From Halorubrum sp. CSM-61 (GTDB lineage Archaea > Halobacteriota > Halobacteria > Halobacteriales > Haloferacaceae), in NCBI RefSeq assembly GCF_003781945.1, contig NZ_RJJW01000007.1, positions 124,001 through 188,000 on the forward strand: a DNA stretch of 64,000 nt, given 5' to 3'. Each line of letters begins with the position of its first letter. The first letter of the stretch is position 1. The notes under the pieces were generated by a model, which did no database searches, was not told the DNA's origin, and saw nothing but the letters and a program-made list of their open reading frames with translations. Of the stretch, positions 169-15,265 are shown one piece after another. The translations under genes were made by a program, and so were the position numbers.

Positions 169-591
169 ATGGCATCCATCGACACCGATCCCGATATTAC
201 CGTCGGATACTCACGGCTCTCGCCAAACGCCGTGTGGTGCTTCTTCGACGAGATCGACGATGTCCCGAATCTGACCGCCGCCGAAGAACAGGGAGAGGCG
301 TGGGAGGCCCTTCTCGACGGCGACCGCATCGGAACGGCAGTCGTCGGTACCGTCGGAACGTCGTTCCTGAGTCGAATCATCATCACACCGAACGCGCGAC
401 GGATGAGCGTCGCGACCGCAATCTTCGACCGCCTCCAAGACGTGTATTGGTGCCTCCGCTGCCGCGTTCACAAGGATAATCAAGCTGGCATCAGGCTCGT
501 CGAATCCACCGGATTCCACCGGAAACGGAAGGGTCGCTACGGCGAACTTTGGTGGTACGATACACAACTCAACAACGTCGACGACAAGTAA
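169..591 (+). CDS. GNAT-like N-acetyltransferase
   Basis: 140 aa. The middle and end read like a GNAT fold: a strand followed by a basic turn and helix (RIIITPNARRMSVATAIFDR, about residues 69-88), then CRVHKDNQAGIRLVESTGFH (about 97-116), the usual position of the beta-5/alpha-4 'N..A..LYE..GF' motif. The acetyl-CoA loop (Q/R-x-x-G-x-G/A) is not canonical (ARRMSVA), so the assignment rests mostly on the C-terminal half. The substrate is unknown. It starts 3 bases after the preceding zinc-ribbon gene, so the two are probably one transcript. Confidence 0.6.
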   Translation: MASIDTDPDITVGYSRLSPNAVWCFFDEIDDVPNLTAAEEQGEAWEALLDGDRIGTAVVGTVGTSFLSRIIITPNARRMSVATAIFDRLQDVYWCLRCRVHKDNQAGIRLVESTGFHRKRKGRYGELWWYDTQLNNVDDK

Positions 592-632
592 CCCCTGGGT
601 AGCTTTCTCCCGTCCCAGGACCGTGCAGACGT

Positions 633-863
633 ATGAATCCAGAACTCGTCCATCCACGTGGGAACATCACGGCCGTACTCCCGCTGCTTGACCCAGCCCA
701 GCAGCGCCGCTATCAAGACGCCCTCAAGCGACGGGCCCGCGGCCACCTTCCACAGCGGTTCGACGCTTGTGCCGGCCGCGACGAGGCTCGCACATACTAC
801 GAGGGAAAGCCGACACCCCCATCCGGACGGCTAAGTGTGCCTCACCGTTACGGATACCGATGA
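633..863 (+). pseudogene. Possible remnant of a plasmid gene
   Basis: The first 58 or so residues (MNPELVHPRGNITAVLPLLD onward) read like ordinary haloarchaeal protein. The remainder turns Pro/Arg-rich and ends where the lower-GC island begins. A second open frame at 835-1071 (GTG start) may hold decayed downstream sequence. I read this as the truncated edge of an older gene cut by insertion of the 1-6 kb island. It could instead be a short real gene. No family is recognised. Confidence 0.3.
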
Positions 864-1071
864 AACCCCCGTTGGGCTGGTACTCCCCACTTCCGCTCGA
901 GACGCGTTTAGGGTACACTCTGAGGCGTTACAGAGGCCCCAGTCACTTATCCAGGGGGGTGACCATCACCTAGTTGGGGTTACCAACGTCTGTCCCGATT
1001 CCGTGTTTGCGCTGGGACCAACGAAGGAGACCACCAACGACTATAACTCGTCGCGATGTTTCGACAAGTAA

Positions 1072-1812
1072 ATGCCGAACAATCTTGAAAATGAGTCAGC
1101 GGAAAAGTCATCCGCAGACTCAGAGGATATCGTACTCTCCTCGTATGTTGCGTATAATCGGAAGGTCTTTCCAAAAATAGTTGACCTCCACGTTGAGGAC
1201 GGGGCAACTATTGCTGACGTGACTTATGGACGCGGGAACTTCTGGACCGACGTGCCGGACGAGAAGTACAAAGTATACAAGACAGATATCGACCCTGAAA
1301 AATCACCAGATAGTGAAGAGGGAGTCGATTGCCGTGACCTCCCCTACGAAGATGGTGAAATCGACTGTGTAGTGCTAGACCCTCCCTATGCAGAAGGATT
1401 CTTCCGGCGAAATAAAGACCACCTTGCAGGGAATGGCTCACATTCCAATTTCCGATCGAATTACTCTACAGGTGATGTGCATACCGGGGGGTCGAAGTAT
1501 CACCAAGCAGTCTTAGACCTCTACTTTGAAGCGGGGAAGGAAGCCAAACGAGTACTTAATGATGACGGTGTGTTTGTGGTGAAAGTTGGAGATGAGGTGA
1601 GTTCAAACACTCAATACTTGACACACATCCAGATAACAAACTTTTACGAGAGAGAGCTGAGGTTCTACACGAAGGATTTGTTCGTCGTAGAACGTCACAA
1701 CAAACCCTCTGTTTCCGGAATGCACAATCAAGTTCACGCACGCAAGAACCACTCTTTCTTTATGGTCTATAAAATGGATGGAGAGCCACAGAATATCCTC
1801 GAAACAAGTTGA
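1072..1812 (+). CDS. Site-specific DNA methyltransferase (DPPY type)
   Basis: 246 aa. A SAM-dependent Rossmann fold begins near residue 45 (TIADVTYGRGNFW as a degenerate motif I; YKTDIDP as the acidic end of strand 2). It is followed by the catalytic motif IV VLDPPY at 101-106, which marks an N6-adenine or N4-cytosine DNA methyltransferase. Residues 157-175 (RVLNDDGVFVVKVGDEV) fit motif V/VI. The gene is clearly richer in A and T than the plasmid backbone. A TATA-like box (gactataactc) lies about 25 nt before the ATG, which fits a leaderless transcript. It converges, 7 bases apart, with the helicase/nuclease unit at 1820-6234. By context it is the modification arm of a restriction-like system. 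It could also be an orphan methylase. Confidence 0.75.
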   Translation: MPNNLENESAEKSSADSEDIVLSSYVAYNRKVFPKIVDLHVEDGATIADVTYGRGNFWTDVPDEKYKVYKTDIDPEKSPDSEEGVDCRDLPYEDGEIDCVVLDPPYAEGFFRRNKDHLAGNGSHSNFRSNYSTGDVHTGGSKYHQAVLDLYFEAGKEAKRVLNDDGVFVVKVGDEVSSNTQYLTHIQITNFYERELRFYTKDLFVVERHNKPSVSGMHNQVHARKNHSFFMVYKMDGEPQNILETS

Positions 1813-1819
1813 AGACAGT

Positions 1820-3415
1820 TCAGCGGACCGTGAAGATCTCCATCCCGGTATCGAGGGGCATCGGGCTTACCGGGATCTGGAGTAAGTCGGTCACGTCCCC
1901 TCGTAGTGTTGCTTCCCCGTCGCTGGAATTACTCACTTCAGAGAACAACATCTTCCAAAGACGCGCATTGTCGTAGTCGTCAGAGTGCGATGGGATAAAC
2001 TCAATCAGTCGTTCGCTCACGATAACGATGAGCTTCTTTTTCATTCGGCTCAACGCGACATTGAGTCGGTTCGGACTGAGAATGAACTCCGCTTCTCTTC
2101 GGATGTAGTCAGGGTCGCTTACTGTACTCGATAAGATGATCACGTCGCGTTCACTCCCCTGAAATCTATCGACTGTATCAACCACACCTTCGCTAACTTT
2201 GCTTCCCAACGAGTCAATCAGACGACCCCGTTGGGCGTTGTGAGGAGTGATTATCCCGATATTTTCCTTTGAACGGTCAATCGGGGTGATTAGGCTATTT
2301 ACAATACCCGCCTCAAGTGCGTTAGATTGCTGACTCTCGCTGTCTTGATGGACGACAATCGAAATTGGACAATCTGGATTGAGTACTGTGTCGATCGCCT
2401 CATTTCCCGTCTTGTTGACCGCAAGAGGGTCCCGGTAGGCTCGAAGATGAGGATCATCCTCGGTGAAGGAACGATATCTCACCCCATCACGTTCGTACAC
2501 CAGCTTTCGCAAAATGCGAGCTACTTCCTCATCACATCGGTAGGTGATCTCCAGCCGATCTATCGGATACTCTACCGAAGTCGGCACCTCAACCTCGTCG
2601 AACTGCTCATCATCGCCAAACTGGTTCTCCCCACTCAGCAGCCGAAATAGGTCCATTACCGAAAGATACGGAACCAACTCTCGAATGGTTCGGCGGTCTT
2701 CTCGTTCCCAATCGTGCTTCTGGATGGGCGATAGTTGTCTGTGATCGCCTACGACTAGAGTCCTTGCTCCGTCTTTGGTAGATGACCCTGACATCAAGAA
2801 GTCAGTGACGGTCATCATACTGGCTTCATCAACCGCAAATAGGTCGAAGGTGGGTCGTATCGTCTCGTCAAATGCTTTCTTGATTATTCGATTTCCACCG
2901 CTCGGAGTTCCAAAAATGACGAAGCTGTCTGACCCTGCCCCCCAGTTGCTCAGTTGTTGTTGCCCCTCTAAGTCCCTTTTCAGGTCCTCAACCTTCGACT
3001 TCTCCGTATTGTAGTTGACCCGTTCAACATCAGTTTTAGTGGGGACAGAGTAGCCACGGTCACGCGATAAAGCGCGAATCAGGCGGAGCGAGTCTAGCTC
3101 GTCACACCCCTCTTCAGCCATAAGCGTATACTTGAAATCATCAACCTTCTTCAATATCGCGTTAACTGCTCGATGTGAGGGGGCTACAACTAACGCGCGA
3201 ATGCTTCCTCCATCGTTCATCTGGTCATATGAGGCACGCAGGAGCCCATGGGCAAGCGCCAAGGATTTTCCTGTTCCCGGGGGACCCTGAAGGATAGCAA
3301 AGTCATCCTCTTGGCGAGTGATGAATCTTTCTTGGCGGTCGTTTGGATAATCAAGTGAAGAACTACTCTCGACAAAGTCGAGGTATCCACGGTTTGGCTC
3401 TCCGTCATTGCTCAT
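1820..3415 (-). CDS. SF1 DNA/RNA helicase motor (Dna2/Upf1-like)
   Basis: 531 aa with a full set of superfamily 1 motifs. Q motif NDRQERFI (25-32), Walker A GPPGTGKS (44-51), motif II AVDEASMM (194-201), motif III LVVGDHRQLSP, motif IV ITYRC, motif V VDRFQGSERDVIILSS, and motif VI NVALSRMKKKLIVIV near the C terminus. The order and wording match the AAA_11/AAA_12 (Upf1/Dna2) branch. Such helicases normally carry an N-terminal beta-barrel before the Q motif; here there are only 24 residues. A candidate barrel sits at the C terminus of the upstream gene, whose stop overlaps this start by 4 bases (ATGA). The two proteins therefore look like one enzyme split in two. Role: ATP-driven unwinding or translocation for the partner nuclease. 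Confidence 0.85.
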   Translation of the reverse strand: MSNDGEPNRGYLDFVESSSSLDYPNDRQERFITRQEDDFAILQGPPGTGKSLALAHGLLRASYDQMNDGGSIRALVVAPSHRAVNAILKKVDDFKYTLMAEEGCDELDSLRLIRALSRDRGYSVPTKTDVERVNYNTEKSKVEDLKRDLEGQQQLSNWGAGSDSFVIFGTPSGGNRIIKKAFDETIRPTFDLFAVDEASMMTVTDFLMSGSSTKDGARTLVVGDHRQLSPIQKHDWEREDRRTIRELVPYLSVMDLFRLLSGENQFGDDEQFDEVEVPTSVEYPIDRLEITYRCDEEVARILRKLVYERDGVRYRSFTEDDPHLRAYRDPLAVNKTGNEAIDTVLNPDCPISIVVHQDSESQQSNALEAGIVNSLITPIDRSKENIGIITPHNAQRGRLIDSLGSKVSEGVVDTVDRFQGSERDVIILSSTVSDPDYIRREAEFILSPNRLNVALSRMKKKLIVIVSERLIEFIPSHSDDYDNARLWKMLFSEVSNSSDGEATLRGDVTDLLQIPVSPMPLDTGMEIFTVR

Positions 3416-6234
3416 ACATCATCACCCCGAATGAGGCCGTCCAAGAGGTGATAATAATGGTATCTCGGATTTTGACTGGGGCGATTTGATTGCAGTTCTT
3501 CTAGCACGTCGTGGGCGTGTGTTGAGGTCCAGTCGTCGGTCTGTCTATCCAAAATGTACCTATCTCCGGGTTTGAGGTGAACACAGCGGACGCCATAGCT
3601 ATAGCCCGCATCTGCTTCGTTTTGTACCCACACGTCGTGCCTGTGAACGTACTCAAACGTGTCTGGATTCGTGTTTGGTATGAAATTGCCATCTGTGTTG
3701 AATTCACTACAGCGGAGTGTGATGCTGCGGTCACCCGTATTCACGCTCTGGACTTCAACGGGGAGCCCCGACTCGATATCCGCTGGCTTCTTCTTGTCAT
3801 CCTTATGGACTTGTTGAGAGACGTCCCACGTGACAGGATTTGCAACACGATGAGACCCCGAAGATTCGTTTTCAGCCCCCTTCAAACGGCAAGTATACGC
3901 AACTTTTGAGGGGTCACTGAATTCATCAGGTTCGTACACAAGTCGTCCTGTTACAACAAGGTCGTCGCCATCTATTTCAGTCTCTTCCACTTCCACGATT
4001 GCCGCATGGCCCTTCTGTACACGCTCACGTGGTGCTTTTGCGTATTCTCGATACTTTTCTTGACGGTCAGCGTAGTGCTCTAGGTCGAGATAGTCGTTGA
4101 GAGACCGAGCCAAGTCGATGTCTCCCAAATTAAACTCAGGAAGTTCTGGGAGGTCGATTTGTTCTTTGCCGAGGAAGGGATTCTGATGGGACGCAGTACA
4201 CGACTCCAGATGGTGAAGTGCGTGGGACATTTTTTCTCCCAAGAGACCCACATCTTCCGGTGTGATTCTCTCGTCTTGCTTGTCAGCATCGTGGTATCTG
4301 TACTTCTGAATTTCCCACCTATCACGCCCTGAATCTGCCCAGTCTAGGTTTAGCTTCCCTTTTGCGGCCCAGATATACTCCAGAGGGATTTGATTGTCGA
4401 AACGTGCTTTGAGCGGGTAGAAATCGTCTGGATTCTGGATATCCGATTTACTGTGTAGTCTACCATTGCTGTCGGCTTCTACTGGCAGTTTGAAATTGAA
4501 CAGGTTGTACTTGAATGCATCATAGCAGTTGAAGGTCAATCCCCCACCGGACCGTGTCACCTCCCAGTTTGACTTCTTGAATAGACCGTCACAGCCGCAG
4601 TCACAATACTGCGAAGTCGCTTGGTCAAGAATCGGTAGAATACCACTTCCGGGATACCGGAGAGCGAATCGATCCTGAAGTTCGTCCTGTACTATACTGA
4701 CCATCGGTTGGTCGATCGCCTTTCGATACCCTAGGAGGTCCCGAACCGCATCGAACGAGTCCTTGTCATATCGAGGCATCTGACGGAGAATGCCATCTAC
4801 CAGAGCATCCCGCTCCATCCGGCTGAAGAAATATACATGCAACGCTGACCGTGTATCTCCTTCAGCCACGTGTTCTATGGCCGGGAATAGTTTGGAGAAG
4901 AAGTCCTCGAGCAAGTCGCCTTCAACCTCTAGAACCTCTTCTCGCTGGTCGTTATCTGGTAATCGGTCTACTACGGAACTAAATGAAAGTGCTCCAATGG
5001 CTGAATTGTTTCTGACAACTCGCCCAGCAAGCATAGCCAAGGAGTCGCGCATGAAGTCCTCCCGTACATAGAGATACACTCTGATGAGTTCGTCGGGATT
5101 GTAGTCCATCTTCTCTCGGGCATTTGGTGACGCGCTGGTTGATGGAAGGGTACTGTCACCTGACCCCTGAATCGGCGTGGCGTATAACGGCCCAGTTCGT
5201 GCCTGAGAGTCGTTCTGTGCTGCTTGTCTGGTTTGTATCCCACCCAACATAGCCTGTGCCCTCTGAACCATCCGGTCGACTTTCCCGCCAATTGTAGGTT
5301 CACTCAAAAGCTGCTTGACGGTATTCTCGTCGCGTGAAGGAAGTTCGTCGTAGACGTAGGGTTTCGGGTCTTCAATTTTCTCTTTCAGACCCGCGAGGTC
5401 CTCAATATCCTCGATATCATGTTTGTTGAGGATTCGCTGTTCACCCTCCGTGAGACCGAGTAGCGCCAAGTCCAGATTGTCCAGCGCATATTTGAAACAA
5501 TCCTCATTATACAGACAGGTGTTGCACTTACCAGTCAGAGAGAAGTTAACTTCGGCCTGTTTGTAAACAGAGTCTATCGTGCCATCCTCACGCAGAAGCC
5601 TTCGCACGTCTTCTCTGACGACTTCGGGTTCGGCAATAGTTTGAATTGATTCTGGGTCAGTGAAGTCTAATGAATCGCTTTCCCGATGGACTATGCTGAT
5701 TCGAACCTCTAACTCCTCTACGAGCGGCTGTAGGATGTTTTCAAAAATTAGTGCGTAGATACCCGCCTGAATCTGGTGATATGGCTGTACATCACTAGAA
5801 GCCTTGATTTCGAAGATATGCGCGATTATACCGCTATCGGGCGATTCCCAGAGAGCCAGCATATCCCCGCGTCCCTTGATTCCCCATACGTCGATGTAAC
5901 CGCGGGCAGGTGGTTGCTCAATAACAACAGGGTTCTGGACAGTCGCCTTGTCAACAAGACTGTCTAATTCTGTACGTACTTCCTGTTTTCCTATGTCTGG
6001 TTTATCGCTTACGTCCCAGTCAGAACCATCGTAAAGGCCGACTGAGTCTTGTTTGATATTTTCGGTAATATCATCCTCGAACCGGTTGCCAATTTCACTA
6101 AGGAACACGCCCAATTCGTCCTCATTCCCGGTGATTTTGCCGAGACTTTGTTGGAGGTAGCGAGGGCACTGTTCAAACCCAATAAAGAGGCCAATATCCC
6201 CCGGACTGAGAACAGGACGTGAAGATCCAGACAT
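3412..6234 (-). CDS. Cas4/RecB-like PD-(D/E)XK nuclease with Fe-S cysteines
   Basis: 940 aa from the ATG at 6234; an in-frame TTG lies one codon upstream. The N-terminal 250 residues carry the PD-(D/E)XK core: D124 in GRGDMLAL, E142-x-K144 in HIFEIKAS, and a QhxxY-type motif YHQIQAGIYAL at 152-162. One Cys at 23 (EQCPRYLQ) and three at 237, 240 and 246 (CNTCLYNEDC) match the 4Fe-4S arrangement of Cas4, AddB and Dna2 nucleases. The central 500 residues include another Cys cluster (CDCGCDG) and are unrecognised. The last 200 are beta-rich and may be the barrel missing from the partner helicase. It is the first gene of a two-gene operon. Expected activity is single-strand or end-processing DNA cleavage. 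Confidence 0.8.
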   Translation of the reverse strand: MSGSSRPVLSPGDIGLFIGFEQCPRYLQQSLGKITGNEDELGVFLSEIGNRFEDDITENIKQDSVGLYDGSDWDVSDKPDIGKQEVRTELDSLVDKATVQNPVVIEQPPARGYIDVWGIKGRGDMLALWESPDSGIIAHIFEIKASSDVQPYHQIQAGIYALIFENILQPLVEELEVRISIVHRESDSLDFTDPESIQTIAEPEVVREDVRRLLREDGTIDSVYKQAEVNFSLTGKCNTCLYNEDCFKYALDNLDLALLGLTEGEQRILNKHDIEDIEDLAGLKEKIEDPKPYVYDELPSRDENTVKQLLSEPTIGGKVDRMVQRAQAMLGGIQTRQAAQNDSQARTGPLYATPIQGSGDSTLPSTSASPNAREKMDYNPDELIRVYLYVREDFMRDSLAMLAGRVVRNNSAIGALSFSSVVDRLPDNDQREEVLEVEGDLLEDFFSKLFPAIEHVAEGDTRSALHVYFFSRMERDALVDGILRQMPRYDKDSFDAVRDLLGYRKAIDQPMVSIVQDELQDRFALRYPGSGILPILDQATSQYCDCGCDGLFKKSNWEVTRSGGGLTFNCYDAFKYNLFNFKLPVEADSNGRLHSKSDIQNPDDFYPLKARFDNQIPLEYIWAAKGKLNLDWADSGRDRWEIQKYRYHDADKQDERITPEDVGLLGEKMSHALHHLESCTASHQNPFLGKEQIDLPELPEFNLGDIDLARSLNDYLDLEHYADRQEKYREYAKAPRERVQKGHAAIVEVEETEIDGDDLVVTGRLVYEPDEFSDPSKVAYTCRLKGAENESSGSHRVANPVTWDVSQQVHKDDKKKPADIESGLPVEVQSVNTGDRSITLRCSEFNTDGNFIPNTNPDTFEYVHRHDVWVQNEADAGYSYGVRCVHLKPGDRYILDRQTDDWTSTHAHDVLEELQSNRPSQNPRYHYYHLLDGLIRGDDV

Positions 6235-6264
6235 CAATAGTCGATTGGTAGCATACCCGGTATG

Positions 6265-6273
6265 ATAATATTA
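6265..6273 (-). promoter_or_regulatory. TATA box of the nuclease-helicase operon
   Basis: Read on the minus strand, taatattatc lies about 31-39 nt before the nuclease ATG, a spacing usual for haloarchaeal promoters with short leaders. The surrounding 6238-6533 stretch is AT-rich and holds no convincing gene. Confidence 0.5.
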
Positions 6274-6533
6274 CCCCTGTCTATCATATTCACCAATTCC
6301 ATCTCTCTTGGCAAGCCAATGGACTAGTCATAGAGATGTTCTCGCTCTAAAAGCTCAGAACTCCCAGTTTTCGTCTGTCCAATTACGGAATAGAAATCCT
6401 ATGAAATGCCCCACGTCAACCAAAGAGATCACGCCTCAGCTTGGACAAAAAGTAGCTCAAGGCATATACGCGGAAGTGTGTCGCACCACCAGAAGTAGAT
6501 TTCTTCGTCGCCGATAGACAGCGAGCGCCTCTT

Positions 6534-7616
6534 ATGACCGACTCGACCAGAACTCCTCAAGCGCAGCTCACCGAGCTCGACTACAAGGGACACGTCCTCG
6601 AACAACCTCATACGGAACGAGTAACGGCTTCCGTAGAGACAGCCGAAGACCTCTACGCGACAGACGAAGGCGACCTTCTCTGGATCGATGGCACCGAATA
6701 CGCGGTTGTCAAGCGAAACTTCGGGATCTTCCACAGACCGCTCTCAGTCGTCGCCGAAGACGGCACACAAGGGCGGCTCATCGGAGGCACCATCAACCAG
6801 CAGTCGTCGATAGCCGGCATCGCATGGATACACGACCTCCCCGGAGACGACGAGTGCGCCCCGCAGCCGAGTGACTTGCTTGCGCGGTTCGACCGGGTCT
6901 ACCGCCTCGAGGAAGACCGCCTCGACTGTCTCCACGCCTGGACGCCCGATAGCGACCATCGCGTCTGTCCAGCGTGTGAAGAACGCAGTGGCGAACCGAT
7001 ACGTATCGAACAGCAGGCCGGCAAGACTGTCGAACTCCGACAGTGTACGAACACCGACTGCCAACACATCTATCGGTACGTTCGACCCTTCCCGGAACCG
7101 GATACCGCAGCCCTCCTCATTTCGACGGGCACAGTGGACTCTCCCGTGCTCGGATCGGGATACACCACGAGTGAAACTGTCGACGAGTATGAACTCTCAG
7201 GAGTCTTCCGCTGTACCGAGCAGGACGATTTCAAGTTCCCCGTCGAGACGAACCGTGGTCGCGACGACGGCTTTTACTCAGCCTCTGAAGTTGCCGCGTT
7301 CTGCAACCCAAAGCTCGATCACGACGATCCCGACAACCGTTTCGGTACCGTCACCGTCGACACCAACGACCACACTGGGGGAACAGTCATTCGATGGTGC
7401 GACGCACCAGGAAGTCAAGCGAAGATGACCGTCGAGTTTCAGGAGCTCGTCGGCGGAACGAGCTCGCCCACGCCGGACTACGACCGCGCTCTCGACTGGA
7501 ACCTCAACCGAGACGCGTTCACCGCAATTGTCGATCAGACTGGTCCAAGCTATACCGACACGTATCCTGACATTTCCTCTCAACAGAGCGCATCCAACGA
7601 TTACACAACCGCTTGA
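6534..7616 (+). CDS. Unknown protein with a zinc ribbon
   Basis: 360 aa, acidic and soluble. A CPACEERSGEPIR segment (about 148-160) followed by CTNTDCQHIYRY (about 175-186) forms a four-Cys zinc ribbon in the middle. Two beta-rich regions flank it; the C-terminal one ends in a polar tail. No catalytic motif is seen and I do not recognise the family. It starts 296 bases from the divergent nuclease operon and precedes the CPBP protease by 57 bases on the same strand, so the two may be co-expressed. Confidence 0.6.
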   Translation: MTDSTRTPQAQLTELDYKGHVLEQPHTERVTASVETAEDLYATDEGDLLWIDGTEYAVVKRNFGIFHRPLSVVAEDGTQGRLIGGTINQQSSIAGIAWIHDLPGDDECAPQPSDLLARFDRVYRLEEDRLDCLHAWTPDSDHRVCPACEERSGEPIRIEQQAGKTVELRQCTNTDCQHIYRYVRPFPEPDTAALLISTGTVDSPVLGSGYTTSETVDEYELSGVFRCTEQDDFKFPVETNRGRDDGFYSASEVAAFCNPKLDHDDPDNRFGTVTVDTNDHTGGTVIRWCDAPGSQAKMTVEFQELVGGTSSPTPDYDRALDWNLNRDAFTAIVDQTGPSYTDTYPDISSQQSASNDYTTA

Positions 7617-7673
7617 ATCACCCGACCGTTAATACCAGCGAGCCTGCAACCGATACACACGACGCGAACAGCG

Positions 7674-8438
7674 ATGGCCACAGATAGTACATTCGAGGAG
7701 GACATCATCTACCTCTGGCGAACGCTCCGCTCTATCGTCCTCGTACTCGTCTTCATCTTCGGCGCGATCGTTACCAGTCTCATCATCGGCTATGTGGGTA
7801 TCGTCGTTCTCGATCAGGCCTACCCAATTCCCCAGCAGTCAGAGACGGCACGCTTCCTCGCCTCCTCCGCGTTTAATGAACTCGGATACGCGATCTTTGT
7901 CGCTGGTCTCCTCTACTGGAAAACAGACCTCCTCCCCGAAGGCCTTCGCTTCCGTCATCCGACCCATCGCGACGCCCGCTGGATACTCGGCGGCATTCTC
8001 GTGATGATTGTCACAGAATACGTACTCACGTCCCTCTTCGCGTTTTTCAACGCTCCAACTGCACAGAACGCGGCTGCGATCGAGGCCACCAAACACGCCT
8101 CCCTTTCGATGTTCGGCGGACTCATCGTCGTATCCCTTCTCATCACTGGACCCTGTGAGGAAATCCTGTTTCGCGGCCTCATTCAAGAGTATCTCCGCAG
8201 GCACTTCTCTGCCATCGGAGCAATACTTCTCGCCAGCCTCTTTTTTGCGAGTGTACATCTCTTCGCCCTGCAGGGTTCTTTGAGCGGCCTCCGAAACGTC
8301 CTCCTCTCACTCTTTGTGCTATCACTCATCCTCAGCTTCGCCTACGAGCGTACCGACTCACTCTTCGTCCCGATCCTCATTCACGGTAGCTATAACGCTA
8401 TCCTCTTCGCCAGTCTCGGTCTCACTAGCCTCTACTAA
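7674..8438 (+). CDS. CPBP-family intramembrane metalloprotease
   Basis: 254 aa with about seven hydrophobic segments. It carries the three CPBP (CAAX protease and bacteriocin-processing) motifs: EEILFRG (about 161-167, the EExxxR signature), FFASVHLF (about 189-196, second motif His) and LIHGSYNAI (about 234-242, third motif His). The Glu pair and the two His residues are intact, so it should be an active membrane protease. In haloarchaea these proteins have varied roles and their substrates are mostly unknown. It lies between unknown plasmid genes, so context does not suggest a substrate. Confidence 0.88.
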   Translation: MATDSTFEEDIIYLWRTLRSIVLVLVFIFGAIVTSLIIGYVGIVVLDQAYPIPQQSETARFLASSAFNELGYAIFVAGLLYWKTDLLPEGLRFRHPTHRDARWILGGILVMIVTEYVLTSLFAFFNAPTAQNAAAIEATKHASLSMFGGLIVVSLLITGPCEEILFRGLIQEYLRRHFSAIGAILLASLFFASVHLFALQGSLSGLRNVLLSLFVLSLILSFAYERTDSLFVPILIHGSYNAILFASLGLTSLY

Positions 8439-8493
8439 CGGCCGTCTCGATCTCACCCAAGCCATCCCTCTGCTCACACCTATTCTACCGGTA

Positions 8494-8503
8494 TTTTTTA
8501 ATA
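8494..8503 (+). promoter_or_regulatory. TATA box
   Basis: ttttttaata lies 23-32 bases before the ATG at 8526, the spacing of a leaderless haloarchaeal transcript. Confidence 0.5.
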
Positions 8504-8525
8504 TCGGATATACGACGAGTGGGCT

Positions 8526-9037
8526 ATGCGTTTCGCATTAGCAGAAGCGAACTGGGGAGACGACGACGGCACCACGTCGCTCGCAATCGTGACACCAACA
8601 GACCTCGATCGGCCCTCAGAGTACGGCCGGGCCGCAACGGGCTATCAAACCGCTGAAATCGGCTACGAATTTGACTCCACATACGATCCAACCGTCAACG
8701 ACCACCCCGATCCGACTCCCGTCGTCTTCTACCCCAACGAACTCCGCGACATCATTACGGAAGTCCGGAATACGCTCCCCGTTGATCCATTCCACCCGCT
8801 AACTTCGATGTTCTCGTCGACTGGGCTGACGACCAGGAGGGTGGAGAAGGACTTCTCGCGGAGATCGGTACAAACGAAAAAGGAAAATGGTGTAAGCAGC
8901 TCAAGATGCTCCGAAACGACGGCGGCCACCCCTATCTCAAAGTCCAGCGCGGCGCCCACCACACTTGGCTCCGCGGATCGCCAACCCTCGGTCGCAAAGA
9001 GTTCGAGGGCGTCTTCGGAAACGTCACCGTCATCTGA
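8526..9037 (+). pseudogene. Frameshifted unknown gene
   Basis: From ATG 8526 the frame reads sensibly (MRFALAEANWGDDDG ... NTLPVDPFHP), then becomes Ser/Thr/Arg-rich from about 8799. One base out of register, good protein resumes: NFDVLVDWADDQEGGEGLLA, then KWCKQLKMLRND, HPYLKVQRGAHHTWLRG and FGNVTVI, stopping at TGA 9035-9037. A single lost base near 8796-8800 (a C/G run) explains both halves. The repaired product would be about 170 aa of unknown function. It could be a real inactivating mutation, a sequencing error or, less likely, programmed frameshifting. Its promoter looks intact. Confidence 0.65.
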
Positions 9038-9045
9038 CACGGGAA

Positions 9046-9420
9046 TCAGTCCCCCTTCGGATTGACAGGCGCGATATACTCGTTCTTCCAAGTGTCACCG
9101 TCTCGCCATTGCCAATAATAATACCTGTATCCCTGTTTCGGCTCCTTCACCGTGATGTAGGCCCCTGTAGCGGGGACATCATCGTAGTCGTCGGGGTCCA
9201 TCGAGACACCCTGCTCCTCAAGGTCTTCGACGACATCATCGTCGACAGCATCCTCGGGAGCAGTATCTGGAGATGCAGGTGGTTGCTCCCGCTTCCAATC
9301 GGCAAGAGCCTGTGCGTAGTCAGCCAAGTCCTCCAGCTCCTCGACCGATAATTCGTCTACCGTGTCTCGAACGTGTGCCGGAAGGTCAGGTCCAGAAGGT
9401 CGCTCAGTGTCGTCCGTCAT
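9046..9420 (-). CDS. Small acidic haloarchaeal protein (DUF6788-like C terminus)
   Basis: 124 aa. The N-terminal half is helical and acidic (ELSVEELEDLADYAQALADW). The C-terminal 35 residues (PKQGYRYYYWQWRDGDTW, then KNEYI) match the aromatic, basic-turn pattern found at the ends of DUF6788-type proteins, which are common on haloarchaeal plasmids and often lie near recombination or regulatory genes. The function is unknown; DNA or RNA binding is possible. It is divergent from the SWIM gene, and the inverted-repeat element at 9423-9465 begins 3 bases before its start codon, so the element may control both. Confidence 0.6.
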   Translation of the reverse strand: MTDDTERPSGPDLPAHVRDTVDELSVEELEDLADYAQALADWKREQPPASPDTAPEDAVDDDVVEDLEEQGVSMDPDDYDDVPATGAYITVKEPKQGYRYYYWQWRDGDTWKNEYIAPVNPKGD

Positions 9421-9422
9421 TA

Positions 9423-9465
9423 GTTACCCCACAGAGGGGCACATACATAACTATTGTGGGGTAAC
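9423..9465. promoter_or_regulatory. GTTACCCCAC/GTGGGGTAAC inverted-repeat element, copy A
   Basis: GTTACCCCACA (9423-9433) and TGTGGGGTAAC (9455-9465) are perfect inverted repeats. An A on the left and a T on the right extend the match to 12 bp. The 21-bp middle is AT-rich (acatacataactat) and could hold a TATA box. The element sits between two divergent genes and ends 60 bases before the ATG at 9525. It is one of four copies in the window. Confidence 0.75.
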
Positions 9466-9524
9466 TCGTGGTGAGCACTCTCCGGTTGGTTTCTCGCCCC
9501 CACAGATGGTGGAGGTAACTACGC

Positions 9525-10406
9525 ATGTCTACCCACCAGATCACCCCGACGGACGAGCACCTCCCACCCCTCGAACTTCCCCCAGGCGCGCTCGACGCAT
9601 CGCACCCTGACTATGAGAACACCACGGGTAGTGACCCACCGGAGATCGAGCCTATCGAGCACCGCATTCGTCTCGACATCATCGAAGCTGGCGGGCTCTT
9701 GTCTCACGACACCCACGCCCCCACCCCGCTCGCCCGGCAGTACATCCAGAAAACACTTGTCGATACTTACGAAAGCGAACACCGGTTCTTCCCCTCCTAC
9801 GACCGCCTCGATGACTTCCTGGACGAGGCTCCTGCCTTCCTCACAGGTGAGCTCGAACCCCATTACCGTGAGCTCGAACAGATTCGTGCCGATCGCCGAA
9901 AGTGGTACACGGAGCTCATTCCGAAAAACCTCGACACTATTCAAGGAACAGCCGACTCCCTTCTTCCCCTCCACGCAAACACTTTCCACGGAGTCGTCAT
10001 CGTCGACGGAAACACCGATCCAATCGGGTATGCCGACGGACACGATCTCGATGTAGACGATGTCATTCGGGAAGCCCAGCTCGATAACCACATCCTGCCC
10101 TCCGAATACGGGATCACTCTCCCGGCGCCGCTCCTCGTCGGGGAATTCGCCAGCGGGTCCACTTACGCGTTCCTTCCCTGGTCGGACGCCGTCGTCTGTG
10201 GCTGTCCCTATAAGCAGACGAACAAGTGGGCGGTGATGTGCAAACACGAACTGGCGGCTGCATCCTGTCTCGCCACCGCTCACGAAGGAGACGTCGATGC
10301 CAAGTACGTTCTCCCGATCGACGTCGGTGTTGACATCCCGCAGCGCGCCCGCCGGTTCGTCAGCCCGACCGTCGCAGCCACTCACACGCCCCGGAAGCAA
10401 CGGTAA
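9525..10406 (+). CDS. SWIM zinc-finger protein
   Basis: 293 aa. Near the C terminus CGCPYKQTNKWAVMCKH (about 224-240) has the CxC...CxH spacing of a SWIM domain, a zinc finger found in plasmid, transposon and recombination-related proteins and thought to bind DNA or protein. The N-terminal 200 residues are unrecognised. The leader upstream (tggtggaggtaactacgcATG) is almost the same as that of the gene at 23506 (tggtggaggaatctacgtATG), and both follow a GTTACCCCAC element. It is the first gene of a plus-strand run with 10412 and 10833. Confidence 0.75.
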   Translation: MSTHQITPTDEHLPPLELPPGALDASHPDYENTTGSDPPEIEPIEHRIRLDIIEAGGLLSHDTHAPTPLARQYIQKTLVDTYESEHRFFPSYDRLDDFLDEAPAFLTGELEPHYRELEQIRADRRKWYTELIPKNLDTIQGTADSLLPLHANTFHGVVIVDGNTDPIGYADGHDLDVDDVIREAQLDNHILPSEYGITLPAPLLVGEFASGSTYAFLPWSDAVVCGCPYKQTNKWAVMCKHELAAASCLATAHEGDVDAKYVLPIDVGVDIPQRARRFVSPTVAATHTPRKQR

Positions 10407-10411
10407 TCACG

Positions 10412-10765
10412 ATGACGCCTTCCATCACAGACCCGGGGAGCCACCCCCAGCTGCAGTGGCTCATTCGCGGGTCGCCCGCGATTACGCTCACTGAAGCTCT
10501 CCACAACGCGATCCCTGTCGAGGTCCTCGACAACACCGTTGTCGACGCTGACGCCTACTATCACGTCGCGACAGACACCATCATCGTCGTCCAATTCGAT
10601 ACGGTCCAAACCGTCCTCGAACGGGACGGTGCTCCTCTCCGCTGCCCAAACGACAACGACCCGGCTTCTTGTCCGTCGTGTGCTACTCAAGGAGACACGA
10701 CCGATTGCGATTCACTCGATAGCACCGACCACCATCCACACGATCCGTCACCAGCCTGTTCGTGA
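10412..10765 (+). CDS. Unknown protein with Cys-rich tail
   Basis: 117 aa, starting 5 bases after the SWIM gene, so probably in the same operon. The N-terminal 70 residues are a compact alpha/beta stretch (VVDADAYYHVATDTIIVVQF). The tail has CPNDNDPASCPSC and further Cys and His residues that could bind zinc. The family is not recognised. Confidence 0.55.
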   Translation: MTPSITDPGSHPQLQWLIRGSPAITLTEALHNAIPVEVLDNTVVDADAYYHVATDTIIVVQFDTVQTVLERDGAPLRCPNDNDPASCPSCATQGDTTDCDSLDSTDHHPHDPSPACS

Positions 10766-10832
10766 GTTCCGATGTCCTGCGGACTTCACACGTTCGACGA
10801 GAGTCTACCCAAGCACTCTACTCCTCCTGACT

Positions 10833-11504
10833 ATGCAGATTGACACAGCCACCCTCACACAGATCCAGAAGTATCGCGTCACCGCCGACCCGGTCGTCGC
10901 GAGTAACCACGCCGCCGGCGCCGCCAACCTCGAGGACGGTATCCACGAGGAACGCCGCGCACTCGTTGAGGACACTCCAACAGGTGAGCGTGTACCCGTC
11001 GCAACGTGGGGCGAGCTCGCGGCACTCTGTTCGACGGCCTCCCTCACGCACGCCGCATTCACGAACGCGAAGTTCGTCAGCCTCTACCAGTACGCCTTCC
11101 GCCAGTACCTCGACGGGATCGCCGGCAATGACCAGGAAGTGGACGCGATGCTTCCCTCGAACTTCCCGATCCTCCCCACAGACGACGAAATTCGCGATAG
11201 AGCCCGTGACCTCCGCGAAGCGCTCAAGCGCGACCGCGACCGCTGGTTCACCGAGCACGTCAATGAACTCGACATCGAAACCGACGGTGTCCCGACGGCA
11301 TTCTGGCTCCACGATTCCACGACGACGGCAGCAGAACTTCTCGCCGAGTGGTTCGCGGCCGGTGAGGTCTCCGAACGGCTTCTCCAAAGCCTCCCCAGTC
11401 TCCCCGGACAGACACTCGGTGTCGAAGTCGAGACGTCCGAGAGTACGTCCACTGGGACAGCAGGTCCAACCGACCCCGTGCAGGCCGGTCTCGATATGTT
11501 CTAA
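10833..11504 (+). CDS. Unknown helical plasmid protein
   Basis: 223 aa from the ATG at 10833; in-frame sequence upstream of this is Ser/Thr/Arg-rich and looks non-coding. It is mostly helical (AALCSTASLTHAAF; DRARDLREALKRDRDRWF) with a Ser/Thr-rich tail, and has no membrane segment or known motif. It follows the SWIM gene and 10412 on the same strand and may belong to that operon. Confidence 0.6.
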   Translation: MQIDTATLTQIQKYRVTADPVVASNHAAGAANLEDGIHEERRALVEDTPTGERVPVATWGELAALCSTASLTHAAFTNAKFVSLYQYAFRQYLDGIAGNDQEVDAMLPSNFPILPTDDEIRDRARDLREALKRDRDRWFTEHVNELDIETDGVPTAFWLHDSTTTAAELLAEWFAAGEVSERLLQSLPSLPGQTLGVEVETSESTSTGTAGPTDPVQAGLDMF

Positions 11505-11743
11505 TGGGGATTGTAAAAAGAATCCAGAGATTCATTTGGTACAACTCTAAGGACTGATAGGATAGGTGTGCGATATACACAGTGTTTTAGTAAAAACGCC
11601 TCTCGAGAGATTTTAGAGGTGCTCGAGATCTACGTAACGTTCATTCAGGAGAACAGAGATATTGACAACTTGGGCTAGGTGAGATCGAGAACTAAGCACC
11701 TTCACCCAGCCAATTTATTGTCATCCCAGTGGCTGAATCTCAT

Positions 11744-12226
11744 ATGGCTGACGAAAAATACGGTCGAATGAGTGAGGAGGCACGTTCATCCTTAGACCAC
11801 CTAATCGAAAATCAGAATCAATTCAGTGATCATTCGATTGAGGTAATTAAAATTAACCTCTTAGTAGGGAGCCTGGTTCTTACAGCAGGTTCGTTCTTAG
11901 CAAACAGTGTCGGTATAACTCCAATCCCGACGAAGGCGTACATATCTGGAGGTGTCGCGGTCTTAGCGTGGTTGGGTTCAATTCTGATGGCTGAACTCAC
12001 CTATTTTGGAATCCGGACGCACATCGGCGTTAGTCACTCGGCTATTGAGCACTTTCCCGATGTAGAAATTGAAGATATAGAAGAAGTATTATTGAGGAGT
12101 TATTCAGATATGCTCCAATATAGCGCTGAAGAGAACCGATCCACCGCTAGGCACATTATGCTTTCATTCGCACTCACGACGCTCTCGATAGTTGCGTTCT
12201 GTTTGACCGGAATCTTCCTAACCTGA
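11744..12226 (+). CDS. Small three-TM membrane protein (SLATT-like architecture)
   Basis: 160 aa from the ATG at 11744; an in-frame GTG at 11729 is less likely because the AT-rich promoter (aatttattg) lies close before it. A soluble helical N terminus is followed by two hydrophobic segments (LLVGSLVLTAGSFLA; GGVAVLAWLGSILMAEL), a polar stretch and a final hydrophobic helix (ALTTLSIVAFCLTGIFLT). A membrane pair plus helical regions resembles SLATT-type effectors, but this is an architecture match only. Base composition is lower in GC than the neighbours, and with the rhomboid gene it looks like an acquired module. Confidence 0.55.
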   Translation: MADEKYGRMSEEARSSLDHLIENQNQFSDHSIEVIKINLLVGSLVLTAGSFLANSVGITPIPTKAYISGGVAVLAWLGSILMAELTYFGIRTHIGVSHSAIEHFPDVEIEDIEEVLLRSYSDMLQYSAEENRSTARHIMLSFALTTLSIVAFCLTGIFLT

Positions 12227-12285
12227 TACGTTGGGGCGGATCTCAGTCGAAGCTGAGGGTCAAATTCCGACTCAACGGGTATGAG

Positions 12286-12297
12286 ACATTTTATTTT
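12286..12297 (+). promoter_or_regulatory. TATA box of the rhomboid gene
   Basis: cattttattttg centred about 30 nt before the ATG at 12321 supports that ATG rather than the in-frame TTG at 12306. Confidence 0.45.
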
Positions 12298-13692
12298 GTT
12301 GCTGTTTGAATTCAAGCACTATGAGTCGTGTGATGACTTTCCTCTCAAATAAGAGGCTGACTCTCTCGTTCATAGTGATCCTCCTCATTACCTATCTACT
12401 AGAACTTCTCACCATCGCCCAGTTGGGAATAGAGACGTTCGAGTTCTGGTTTCTCTTTACTCCAGGATTCGATCCCACACCGGCATGGATACTCTCCCTG
12501 TTTGCTCACGGAACAGTCCGACACCTGGGCGTGAATATCGTGGGAATTCTGGTGTACGGACTGGTGCTGGAGCGATATGTGGCGCGGAAGACGTATCTTG
12601 GTGTCTACGTCTCAACTGGTCTCCTCGCAGGACTCATCCACACGAACCTGACTGACAACATCGGAGCTGGGGCGAGTGGTGCGATTATGGGAATCGTCGG
12701 CTTCTATGCCATCGTGTATCTGGCGTTGTACCGGCCGAATGGTTGGAACGATCCATTGGAGAATGTCCGCTATGTCCTTGCCATCCTCGGGCCATTCGTA
12801 ATTGGTGCACAGTACGTTGTTGACATCTACGTCAACAATGGTGGATATGCCCATGTCGCCGGTGGAATCATAGGAATTCTTCTGGGACTCGTCTACGCGA
12901 GATCTCAGGTGGAGAGTTCTTTCTCCAGAACAATCGAGGCAGCCAGAGAGTCTCCGTTCCCAACGGCGCTCTTGGTACTGATCTTGGCCGAGACAGCAGT
13001 GATAGTCTACCTCCTGATAGTGACTCCAGAGAACCCAGCAACCTCAACGGCAGTCCAGGCTGGAGCCACAATCATCCTGGTTCTCATCACGATCTGGTAC
13101 GCAGACCACACGAGACGGAGCGCCGACCTCTTCCGACGTGAACTGGAATTGGAGACCCAACGGAACCATGCCGATACCCTCCAGATTCGTACTGACAAGT
13201 GGTTAGAAGAATTCCCATCCGTTCGTGAGACTGATGTCCCGCTATTCGTAGATAGAGATTCGATGCACGCAGTTCCGGAGAGTCTCCGAGGGGATCCGTA
13301 CTTCGAAGATCTCACAACGAATCACGCCTCATACCTCCAAGATTCTGTAGACCATATAGACAACCTCTACTCTGAATTTCTGGATATTCGCGATGATTTC
13401 ATAGATACCCTAAGTATCGACGAGTGTCCTGATATGAGGCAGGTCGACGTTCTTGAGGAGAACTACGCCAAATGGCTGTTCGAGCGAGTGCTACTGATGG
13501 AGCGGACGGGCAAGGACAAAGAGGATCTCAAATCAGCAGTCGGTGACGCCTTCGAAACCAGCGCAGAGGAGGAAGACGACCACTTCCGATTGTTTGGAGA
13601 TACGGACCAATTTCGGAGGAAACCGATTATGCTCTATCACTACAAGCGGTCCTTTGCGAACAGCCGAAAGGAACCGTACCATTCGTCTTTAG

Positions 13693-14997
13693 CTAAGACT
13701 CACACCTCGGTTGCGTAGCGGTAGCGAGCGTCTCTTGCAGTATCGGTCGTTGCTGGTGGATCTTCTGTGCATCTTCGATCAGCCGCTCCAACAGCGGCGG
13801 TGGCGAGTAGCCGAGATATTGGCCGAGTTCGTGGAGGATGAGCTGGGCGTGCGACCGGAAGGTCGCCGCCCAGCGCTCCGGCGGGAACACGATGTCATCG
13901 TCGGCCTGCTCGGTGACCAGATCCAACAGCTCACGACTCACCAGCAGCGACAGCAATGCAGCGTACAACAGAATTTTCACGACATCCGGATCGCTCGTGT
14001 CGAACTCATCCAGTTCGTACTGCGTCTTCAGCTCACGAAACAGGGTTTCTACCTCCCATCGACACCGATACAGCGTTGCGAGATCCGCCGGGAGAAACTC
14101 CTCTCGCGGTAGATTCGTGATGTACAGATGGTAGTCGTCGGCGTCCTCGTCGCGGACGCCGACGACGCGGAACCGCTTCGTATCCAGCGAGCGCGTTCCT
14201 TCGTACTGGCCTCGCTTGAACTCCGCTTCGACCTCTACGTCGATGTACTGTCGGTGCAGATCGTCAACGACATCGTGGATCTGTTCGCCCACCAAGGGCC
14301 TGGCGCGCCCGCGCCAGGCCCGCAACTCCTTCGTTATCACCGGATTCGCGTTCTGCTTCAGCCGACTCACGAAATAACCGTCGTTCTCGTCGATCAACGC
14401 GAAGCGGCGATACTTGAAGTACGCCAGATCGAGCAAAACAAACCGTCCTTGCAGCCATGAACCCGTCTTGAACAAGGTGCTGTCGTGCGTTTTCTCGTCG
14501 GTCACGTCGAACCGCTCAATCGTCTCGTCGGTGGCGTTGTGGAGCAGGTGGAGCTTCGCTCCAGCCTGCTCCTCGTGATGGGCTTTGAACTCCTCAGAGA
14601 GAAACTCATGCAACCGCAACACGGTTCCATCAGCGATCATCACATCCCTGAACCGGTCGATATCAGCGTCAACAGCCCCGGGAACAGCGACCTCGTCGAG
14701 CACGGCCTCGACGAGGTCGCGGAGATACTCCGCGAGTATCGGCGTCAACCGCTGATAGAAACCGCCAGGTGAGATCGTTTCATCAGCCGTCGAGTTGTAG
14801 CTACGTCTGAAGCCAGCGAGTGTTCGGCTCTCGCCTGCGGCGAAGCCGAACACGAGCGCCCACACGAGGACTGGAACCTGTAGCTTGCCCTCTCGCTCGA
14901 CCACGCCGAGTTCCTCGGCGTGCTCTTCGAGGAACTCGGAGGGAAACAGTGTAGTGAGCCGACGCATGATTCTCGATGAGGAGGCTTCTGTGTGCAC
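13693..14997 (-). CDS. IS4-family transposase
   Basis: 434 aa (405 if the later Met, MRRLTTLFPSEF, is used). The DDE catalytic core is visible: MIADGTVLRLHEF (first Asp), LLDLAYFKYRRF (second Asp), and YRCRWEVETLFRELKTQY with the Y-(2)-R-(3)-E-(6)-K pattern (YREK) of IS4 transposases. It resembles the ISH8 group of haloarchaea. It appears intact and active. The TAG stop lies in the flanking TTAGCTAA rather than in the element, so the last codon depends on the target. Confidence 0.9.
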   Translation of the reverse strand: MHTEASSSRIMRRLTTLFPSEFLEEHAEELGVVEREGKLQVPVLVWALVFGFAAGESRTLAGFRRSYNSTADETISPGGFYQRLTPILAEYLRDLVEAVLDEVAVPGAVDADIDRFRDVMIADGTVLRLHEFLSEEFKAHHEEQAGAKLHLLHNATDETIERFDVTDEKTHDSTLFKTGSWLQGRFVLLDLAYFKYRRFALIDENDGYFVSRLKQNANPVITKELRAWRGRARPLVGEQIHDVVDDLHRQYIDVEVEAEFKRGQYEGTRSLDTKRFRVVGVRDEDADDYHLYITNLPREEFLPADLATLYRCRWEVETLFRELKTQYELDEFDTSDPDVVKILLYAALLSLLVSRELLDLVTEQADDDIVFPPERWAATFRSHAQLILHELGQYLGYSPPPLLERLIEDAQKIHQQRPILQETLATATQPRCES

Positions 14998-15065
14998 AGC
15001 GGTTGCCTCCTCATTCCTCTCGAAAAGAAGCCTCGATAAGCCGTCGCTGTCACGTGATTCTGCTC
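13697..15065 (-). mobile_element. IS4-family (ISH8-like) insertion sequence
   Basis: 1,369 bp flanked by an 8-bp direct repeat TTAGCTAA (13689-13696 and 15066-15073). Joining the flanks restores the rhomboid reading frame exactly, which fixes the boundaries. The repeat is itself a palindrome. The ends (gactcacacc... and, inverted, gagcagaatcac...) match only weakly. ISH8-type elements are about 1.4 kb, usually with 10-11 bp duplications, so the 8-bp repeat is slightly short. Confidence 0.85.
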
Positions 15066-15265
15066 TTAGCTAAAGACGGATGGGAACCGTACATGTTCCG
15101 TATGTACGCCAGAGCTCCGCAGATGCATATTGACGATATTGAGTCGGTACCAGGATACTCTGATGCAGTCGACGCTGCTGAACTGCTTGACGACATCGAA
15201 ATGGAACTCGGGGAGTTAGAAAAGAAACTGATTGAGTACAATGAAGCTCCTAGGTTCGAGGGTGA

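Follow-up and report, generated by a model that had tools for sequence, protein, structure and literature searches.

Three adjacent genes in the window, by which we mean the whole stretch of 64,000 nucleotides that was analysed, encode a DNA methyltransferase, a nuclease subunit and a helicase subunit. We propose that this trio is a plasmid-borne, ATP-dependent restriction-modification (R-M) module in which a DNA2-like helicase-nuclease takes the place of the endonuclease, and we put the probability of this reading at roughly 0.55. Since the methyltransferase lies beside a split enzyme, at the position that a classical restriction enzyme has in relatives, the trio is probably an unusual restriction system that destroys foreign DNA.

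Gene layout and anatomy of the helicase-nuclease

The methyltransferase gene (1072-1812, plus strand, 246 aa) is convergent to two minus-strand genes, of which the nuclease subunit gene comes first (3412-6234 and 940 aa from an ATG start, or 3412-6237 and 941 aa from a TTG) and the helicase subunit gene second (1820-3415, 531 aa). A re-check of the open reading frames returned the positions and the convergent arrangement that had been given in an earlier note on this DNA. All three frames are open and their motifs complete. Their GC contents, 0.464 for the methyltransferase, 0.508 for the helicase and 0.498 for the nuclease against 0.565 for the window, bear out the low-GC island which that note had described.

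The nuclease subunit partially matched TIGR03491 (TM0106 RecB-like) at E 2e-7, with weak Cas4 hits as well. In the 941-aa protein as modelled by AlphaFold2 (mean pLDDT 83), residues 1-262 (5452-6237, minus strand) form a Cas4/DNA2/AddB-like Fe-S PD-(D/E)XK nuclease domain, for which VIA-align gave Z scores of 12.3 with Cas4, 9.4 with AdnA, 8.7 with DNA2 and 8.4 with EXO5. Of 28 relatives, 27-28 retain Cys24, Cys238, Cys241 and Cys247, together with Asp125, Glu/Asp143, Lys145, Gln157 and Tyr161. The profile match, the Cas4 fold and the conserved cysteines agree with the Cas4-like Fe-S nuclease first read from the sequence, and by its residues and fold this is the four-Cys Fe-S PD-(D/E)XK domain of a DNA2-like enzyme of the Bad type, the Fe-S cluster being predicted. 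Residues 377-691 (4165-5109, minus strand) adopt an RNase H fold like that of DEDD exonucleases (VIA-align Z 10.3 with DNA polymerase alpha and 9.3 with 3'hExo), in which the canonical DxE was not recognisable and a consensus V-Q-x-D stands at the expected place; this degenerate domain probably only binds DNA. Residues 706-919 (3481-4122, minus strand), on the same polypeptide, form a stalk/beta-barrel domain resembling residues 5-159 of IGHMBP2 (VIA-align Z 8.0) and Senataxin (7.7); a Z near 8 is modest by VIA-align's own guide, and the position of the barrel beside the RecA domains fits. We assigned these domains by aligning Foldseek's candidate structures with VIA-align, as Foldseek alone returned no match for the nuclease subunit at E <= 0.001.

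The helicase subunit matched AAA_12 (E 9e-23) and AAA_11 (E 2e-16), and by profile the structures of SMUBP-2, UPF1, DNA2 and Sen1. It comprises both RecA domains, RecA1 and RecA2, of an SF1B helicase of the UPF1/DNA2 type, which upholds and narrows the SF1 assignment made earlier, and its motifs GPPGTGK, DEAS and FQGxERD are intact and kept across the trio loci. In UPF1-like helicases such as IGHMBP2 and Senataxin, the stalk/beta-barrel directly precedes RecA1. Part of the helicase therefore sits in the nuclease polypeptide, and the gene border cuts through the helicase, with the barrel on the nuclease gene and the RecA domains on the next. Thus the SF1B helicase with an N-terminal beta-barrel expected of a DNA2-like enzyme of the Bad type is present, spread over two overlapping genes rather than contained in one polypeptide in all five genomes that hold the trio. 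The overlap is 4 bp in the window (ATGA in the junction DNA) and 8 bp in the four relatives, and these overlapping stop and start codons point to coupled translation of nuclease and helicase. In most haloarchaea the two are fused into one protein of ~1500 aa. Judged from the modelled anatomy, the nuclease and helicase proteins very probably form one DNA2-like helicase-nuclease; the domains recognised in the earlier note stood, and its two independent proteins became halves of one enzyme.

A sequencing error was rejected as the source of the split, since the break recurs identically in the four other genomes, where the start and stop codons overlap. One further genome (G378; L230 7210-11927) has split independently at the border seen in the trio, beside a 1578-aa YprA-like helicase and without this methyltransferase, so that the split alone is not a marker of the trio. 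We also observed a second kind of split at four loci (L213, L222, L224 and L234), where the helicase is cut between RecA1 and RecA2 into overlapping or adjoining genes, each followed by a small protein of 125-172 aa from one family.

The methyltransferase family and its usual partner

The methyltransferase matched PF01555 (E 2e-9) and contains DPPY, as had been noticed from the sequence. It is a small DPPY enzyme of a Type II R-M family, with motif I ahead of motif IV, and 11 relatives keep both D103-P-P-Y106 and, in the motif I region, D49-V-T-x-G-x-G. A search of solved-structure profiles for its specificity gave no informative match, only ParB domains reached via fused relatives. Haloarchaeal members of the family fused to an N-terminal ParB-like domain (L073-L078) form one clade and have varied neighbours.

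We compared 118 loci of this family from bacteria, archaea and viral contigs. At 62 of them, the methyltransferase has a partner gene of ~200-230 aa (~215 aa) with a D...ExK motif, a PD-(D/E)XK endonuclease, which was convergent to the methyltransferase in 52 of 53 aligned members. A model of this partner (pLDDT 88) resembles PD-(D/E)XK enzymes, best I-Ssp6803I and then Hjc and SwaI. The endonuclease cluster (c0, L080-L159) is widespread, and its scanned members had no Pfam, NCBIfam or PADLOC match. The window's methyltransferase belongs to the same Type II family as these PD-(D/E)XK-paired enzymes, and in the window the helicase-nuclease occupies the position that the endonuclease has in other loci, convergent to the methyltransferase and directly downstream of it. 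We also considered, and rejected, that a cognate Type II endonuclease is encoded at another place in the genome, as the ~215-aa family was not found anywhere in the five trio genomes. With the usual partner of the methyltransferase missing from every one of them, the DNA2-like pair appears to stand in for it.

Homologues of the methyltransferase are also present in 38 viral contigs, none of which has the nuclease-helicase pair. Virus-borne copies of the pair were rejected, as two scans of viral contigs with the nuclease found no homologue.

Conservation, descent and mobility of the trio

Counts of relatives come from whole-genome searches, as no relative turned up when contigs were scanned with patterns of the nuclease. 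Of 391 haloarchaeal genomes, 43 contain the nuclease and 13 a clear methyltransferase homologue. The split form seen in the window is a clade of five genomes, namely the window's own, Halomicrobium katesii (G114), Halobellus inordinatus (G095), G215 and G151. In all five, the same methyltransferase family lies directly beside the pair, with genes overlapping or nearly touching, and only one of the 38 other nuclease-bearing genomes has this family, on another contig (Fisher p 6e-6 for the linkage; 4e-5 when the near-identical pair is counted once). The co-occurrence that the earlier note had asked about was thus found, and the recurrence in four other haloarchaeal genomes led us to reject the methyltransferase as a chance neighbour. 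Four trios are same-strand operons in the order nuclease-helicase-methyltransferase, with an overlap of the methyltransferase reading frame in three of the four, and the window is convergent. No further trio-level match was found in 170 genomes of the family, nor any nuclease match at E 1e-20 in sampled genomes of the phylum outside the class. Upstream of the Halomicrobium katesii trio, L067 5455-6312 gave a weak match to ADDT (amino acid:DNA transferase) at E 7e-5, below the cut-off.

The five trio subunits form one clade in the nuclease tree (support 100/100). In the methyltransferase tree the window's protein stands apart from the other four, both lying among endonuclease-paired haloarchaeal methyltransferases, and 0 of 200 bootstraps united them. 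The combination of one nuclease clade with separate methyltransferases suggests, as far as the trees go, two origins of the pairing or a swap of the methyltransferase for another of its family. G215 and G095, which belong to different families, share 8.56 kb at 99.4% identity including the trio, and on this identity the shared segment is taken as a recent transfer between families.

By its sequence the window's contig is plasmid-like: between 40 and 64 kb, the window shares 97.9% identity with ~148-kb sister plasmids in Natronomonas marina and Halorarius halobius. The trio lies in a segment (581-6499) that is missing from these two plasmids, where 797 other bases stand instead. With blastn, L236 (NZ_CP101163) matched positions 1-580 at 89.5% and 6500-13679 at 95.8%, with nothing between. 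Since the sister plasmids match up to base 580 and again from 6500 with other bases between, the trio is plasmid cargo. An IS4-family ISHme2-like element (13679-15083) is likewise missing from the two sister plasmids. Just upstream of the window lies a defence-rich stretch (L079, G000:C8:109001-128000, 273-11337) with genes for a DUF1156 methyltransferase, a GmrSD Type IV enzyme, an McrC-like (McrBC-like) protein, an AAA ATPase and an unnamed 786-aa protein.

Carriage on a plasmid and absence from its sisters would also suit a selfish addiction module, with the same restriction biochemistry under selection chiefly for keeping the plasmid in the cell through post-segregational killing, and haloarchaeal R-M genes do behave as selfish elements (PMC6471742). 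This explanation overlaps with the R-M reading, and we consider it improbable in its own right; in G114 and G151 the trio lies on contigs 3.0 and 0.9 Mb long, so it is not bound to plasmids. The plasmid location, together with the DNA2 homology, could instead reflect a repair or replication module of plasmids in which methylation controls DNA2-like flap or break processing, in the way that Dam controls MutH. We give this only a slim chance, in view of the patchy distribution (5 of 391 genomes), the cargo-like insertion, the integrase neighbours, the recent transfer between families, and the GmrSD, McrBC-like and DUF1156 methyltransferase genes in the neighbourhood.

Known systems and the proposed function

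No PADLOC 2023 system matched the trio when its genes and the next gene were scanned, in keeping with the earlier view that it is absent from catalogued defence systems. The same scan found no DrmA/DrmB, PglZ or BrxC match, so the lack of DISARM and BREX partners noted previously also held. Only weak cross-matches to MADS were obtained (mad2 at E 8e-5, mad8 at E 0.011). For Mokosh, only the helicase core matched MkoA (E 5.5e-47, positions 623-1080 of 1112), the scan of the trio yielding no full-length MkoA or MkoC with their partner domains, and neither the rest of MkoA nor any MkoB match.

Among R-M systems, Type II loci such as L071, L081 and L138 have methyltransferases 53-68% identical to the window's, convergent as in the window, but their partner is a ~215-aa PD-(D/E)XK endonuclease without a motor, from a family that the trio genomes lack; in place of an ATP-independent, sequence-specific endonuclease, the trio has a partner with intact helicase motifs. 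With Type III systems (Mod/Res) the trio shares a methyltransferase and a helicase/PD-(D/E)XK partner, ATP dependence being presumed for the trio. However, Res is an SF2 motor, whereas the trio combines an SF1B helicase (of the UPF1, SMUBP-2 and DNA2 kind), an Fe-S nuclease and a split chain, without a Mod-like methyltransferase.

The closest precedent is Bad of Geobacillus stearothermophilus, a DNA2-like helicase-nuclease in a single 1245-aa chain that adjoins a methyltransferase in every Geobacillus examined and was proposed, with it, as a novel restriction enzyme (PMC7430649). The earlier idea of a new restriction-like trio stood as to conserved linkage and the lack of a catalogued match, but the notion of such a pairing as a novel restriction enzyme already had this precedent. 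Set beside the published description, both have an Fe-S RecB-type nuclease and an SF1B helicase beside a DNA methyltransferase. The trio differs from Bad in methyltransferase kind, split and history: Bad is bacterial and a single chain with a methyltransferase of the Type III Mod kind (GCCAT, m6A), whereas the trio is haloarchaeal and split, with a small Type II kind.

Beyond the trio, the nuclease-helicase family has different neighbours. Genes for 7-deazaguanine (QueC, QueD, QueE or TGT) lie within 6 kb at 12 of 49 loci, a ~1578-aa DEAD/MZB helicase gene follows within 39-113 bp at six of the 49, and a C5 methyltransferase lies within 200 bp at two. A distant bacterial split pair (Skermanella) sits in a Dpd cluster, near profile matches to queE, a 6-carboxytetrahydropterin synthase gene and dpdB. 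The family thus recurs beside modification genes of differing chemistry. The fused homologues beside QueC/D/E, TGT and YprA-like helicase genes in haloarchaea, with their ~1578-aa helicase, recall haloarchaeal BRIGADE systems (PMC12458937). Unlike BRIGADE and Dpd systems, the trio has no adjacent 7-deazaguanine genes: a search up to 6 kb around the four operon trios found none, and each trio genome has just two TGT genes, neither of them near the trio; those of the window's genome are on other contigs.

For most fused relatives, no methyltransferase is recognisable up to 6 kb away, and some of them lie beside Argonaute genes or are followed by an Mrr-type endonuclease (L002, L203; L003, L004). 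These neighbourhoods, and structural kinship with AddB, AdnA, EXO5 and DNA2, would suit an autonomous defence enzyme that degrades ends or single-stranded DNA (RecBCD/AdnAB-like) of linear viral DNA or replication intermediates, with the methyltransferase a companion that shields the plasmid from the restriction of other hosts and does not control the nuclease. We judge this unlikely, as the same methyltransferase family is in contact with the pair throughout the clade, with overlapping frames in three of four operons, and as the window's methyltransferase is convergent to the pair, which is the usual place of its cognate endonuclease.

In the R-M module that we favour, the methyltransferase, whose family and motifs are observed, would mark a short motif in the DNA of host and plasmid. 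The nuclease and helicase, as one enzyme split between barrel and RecA1, would have to assemble to work, and this enzyme would replace the family's usual sequence-specific endonuclease. Its substrate would be unmarked DNA, engaged probably at ends or gaps, or at sites that the methyltransferase helps to locate, as Mod does for Res in Type III systems; the engaged DNA would then be unwound and degraded by the Fe-S nuclease. In favour of the R-M reading are the linkage in five of five clade genomes (Fisher p 6e-6), the endonuclease missing from trio genomes, relatives beside other modification modules and the Geobacillus Bad precedent (PMC7430649). Weighing against it, the nuclease-helicase showed no target-recognition domain, the five trios include two near-identical copies (8.6 kb at 99.4%), most fused relatives are without a nearby methyltransferase, and an AU test on a reduced set did not reject one origin of the trio methyltransferases (p 0.25). 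Furthermore, DNA2-like enzymes need ends or single strands, not intact circular DNA.

Tentatively, and as a possibility we would not yet favour, the DNA2-like nuclease-helicase may be a general, exchangeable haloarchaeal restriction motor for chemically different marks, made by a small N6/N4-type methyltransferase here and by a C5 methyltransferase or 7-deazaguanine genes elsewhere. The trio could then be the simplest representative of a new class of ATP-dependent restriction, one whose Type II methyltransferase gave up its endonuclease in exchange for a split DNA2. What had been a suggestion from one enzyme, Bad in a novel restriction system, becomes a comparative case for a DNA2-like motor in the endonuclease's place, and with three genes in genetically tractable haloarchaea it becomes testable how base modification steers an end-dependent helicase-nuclease.
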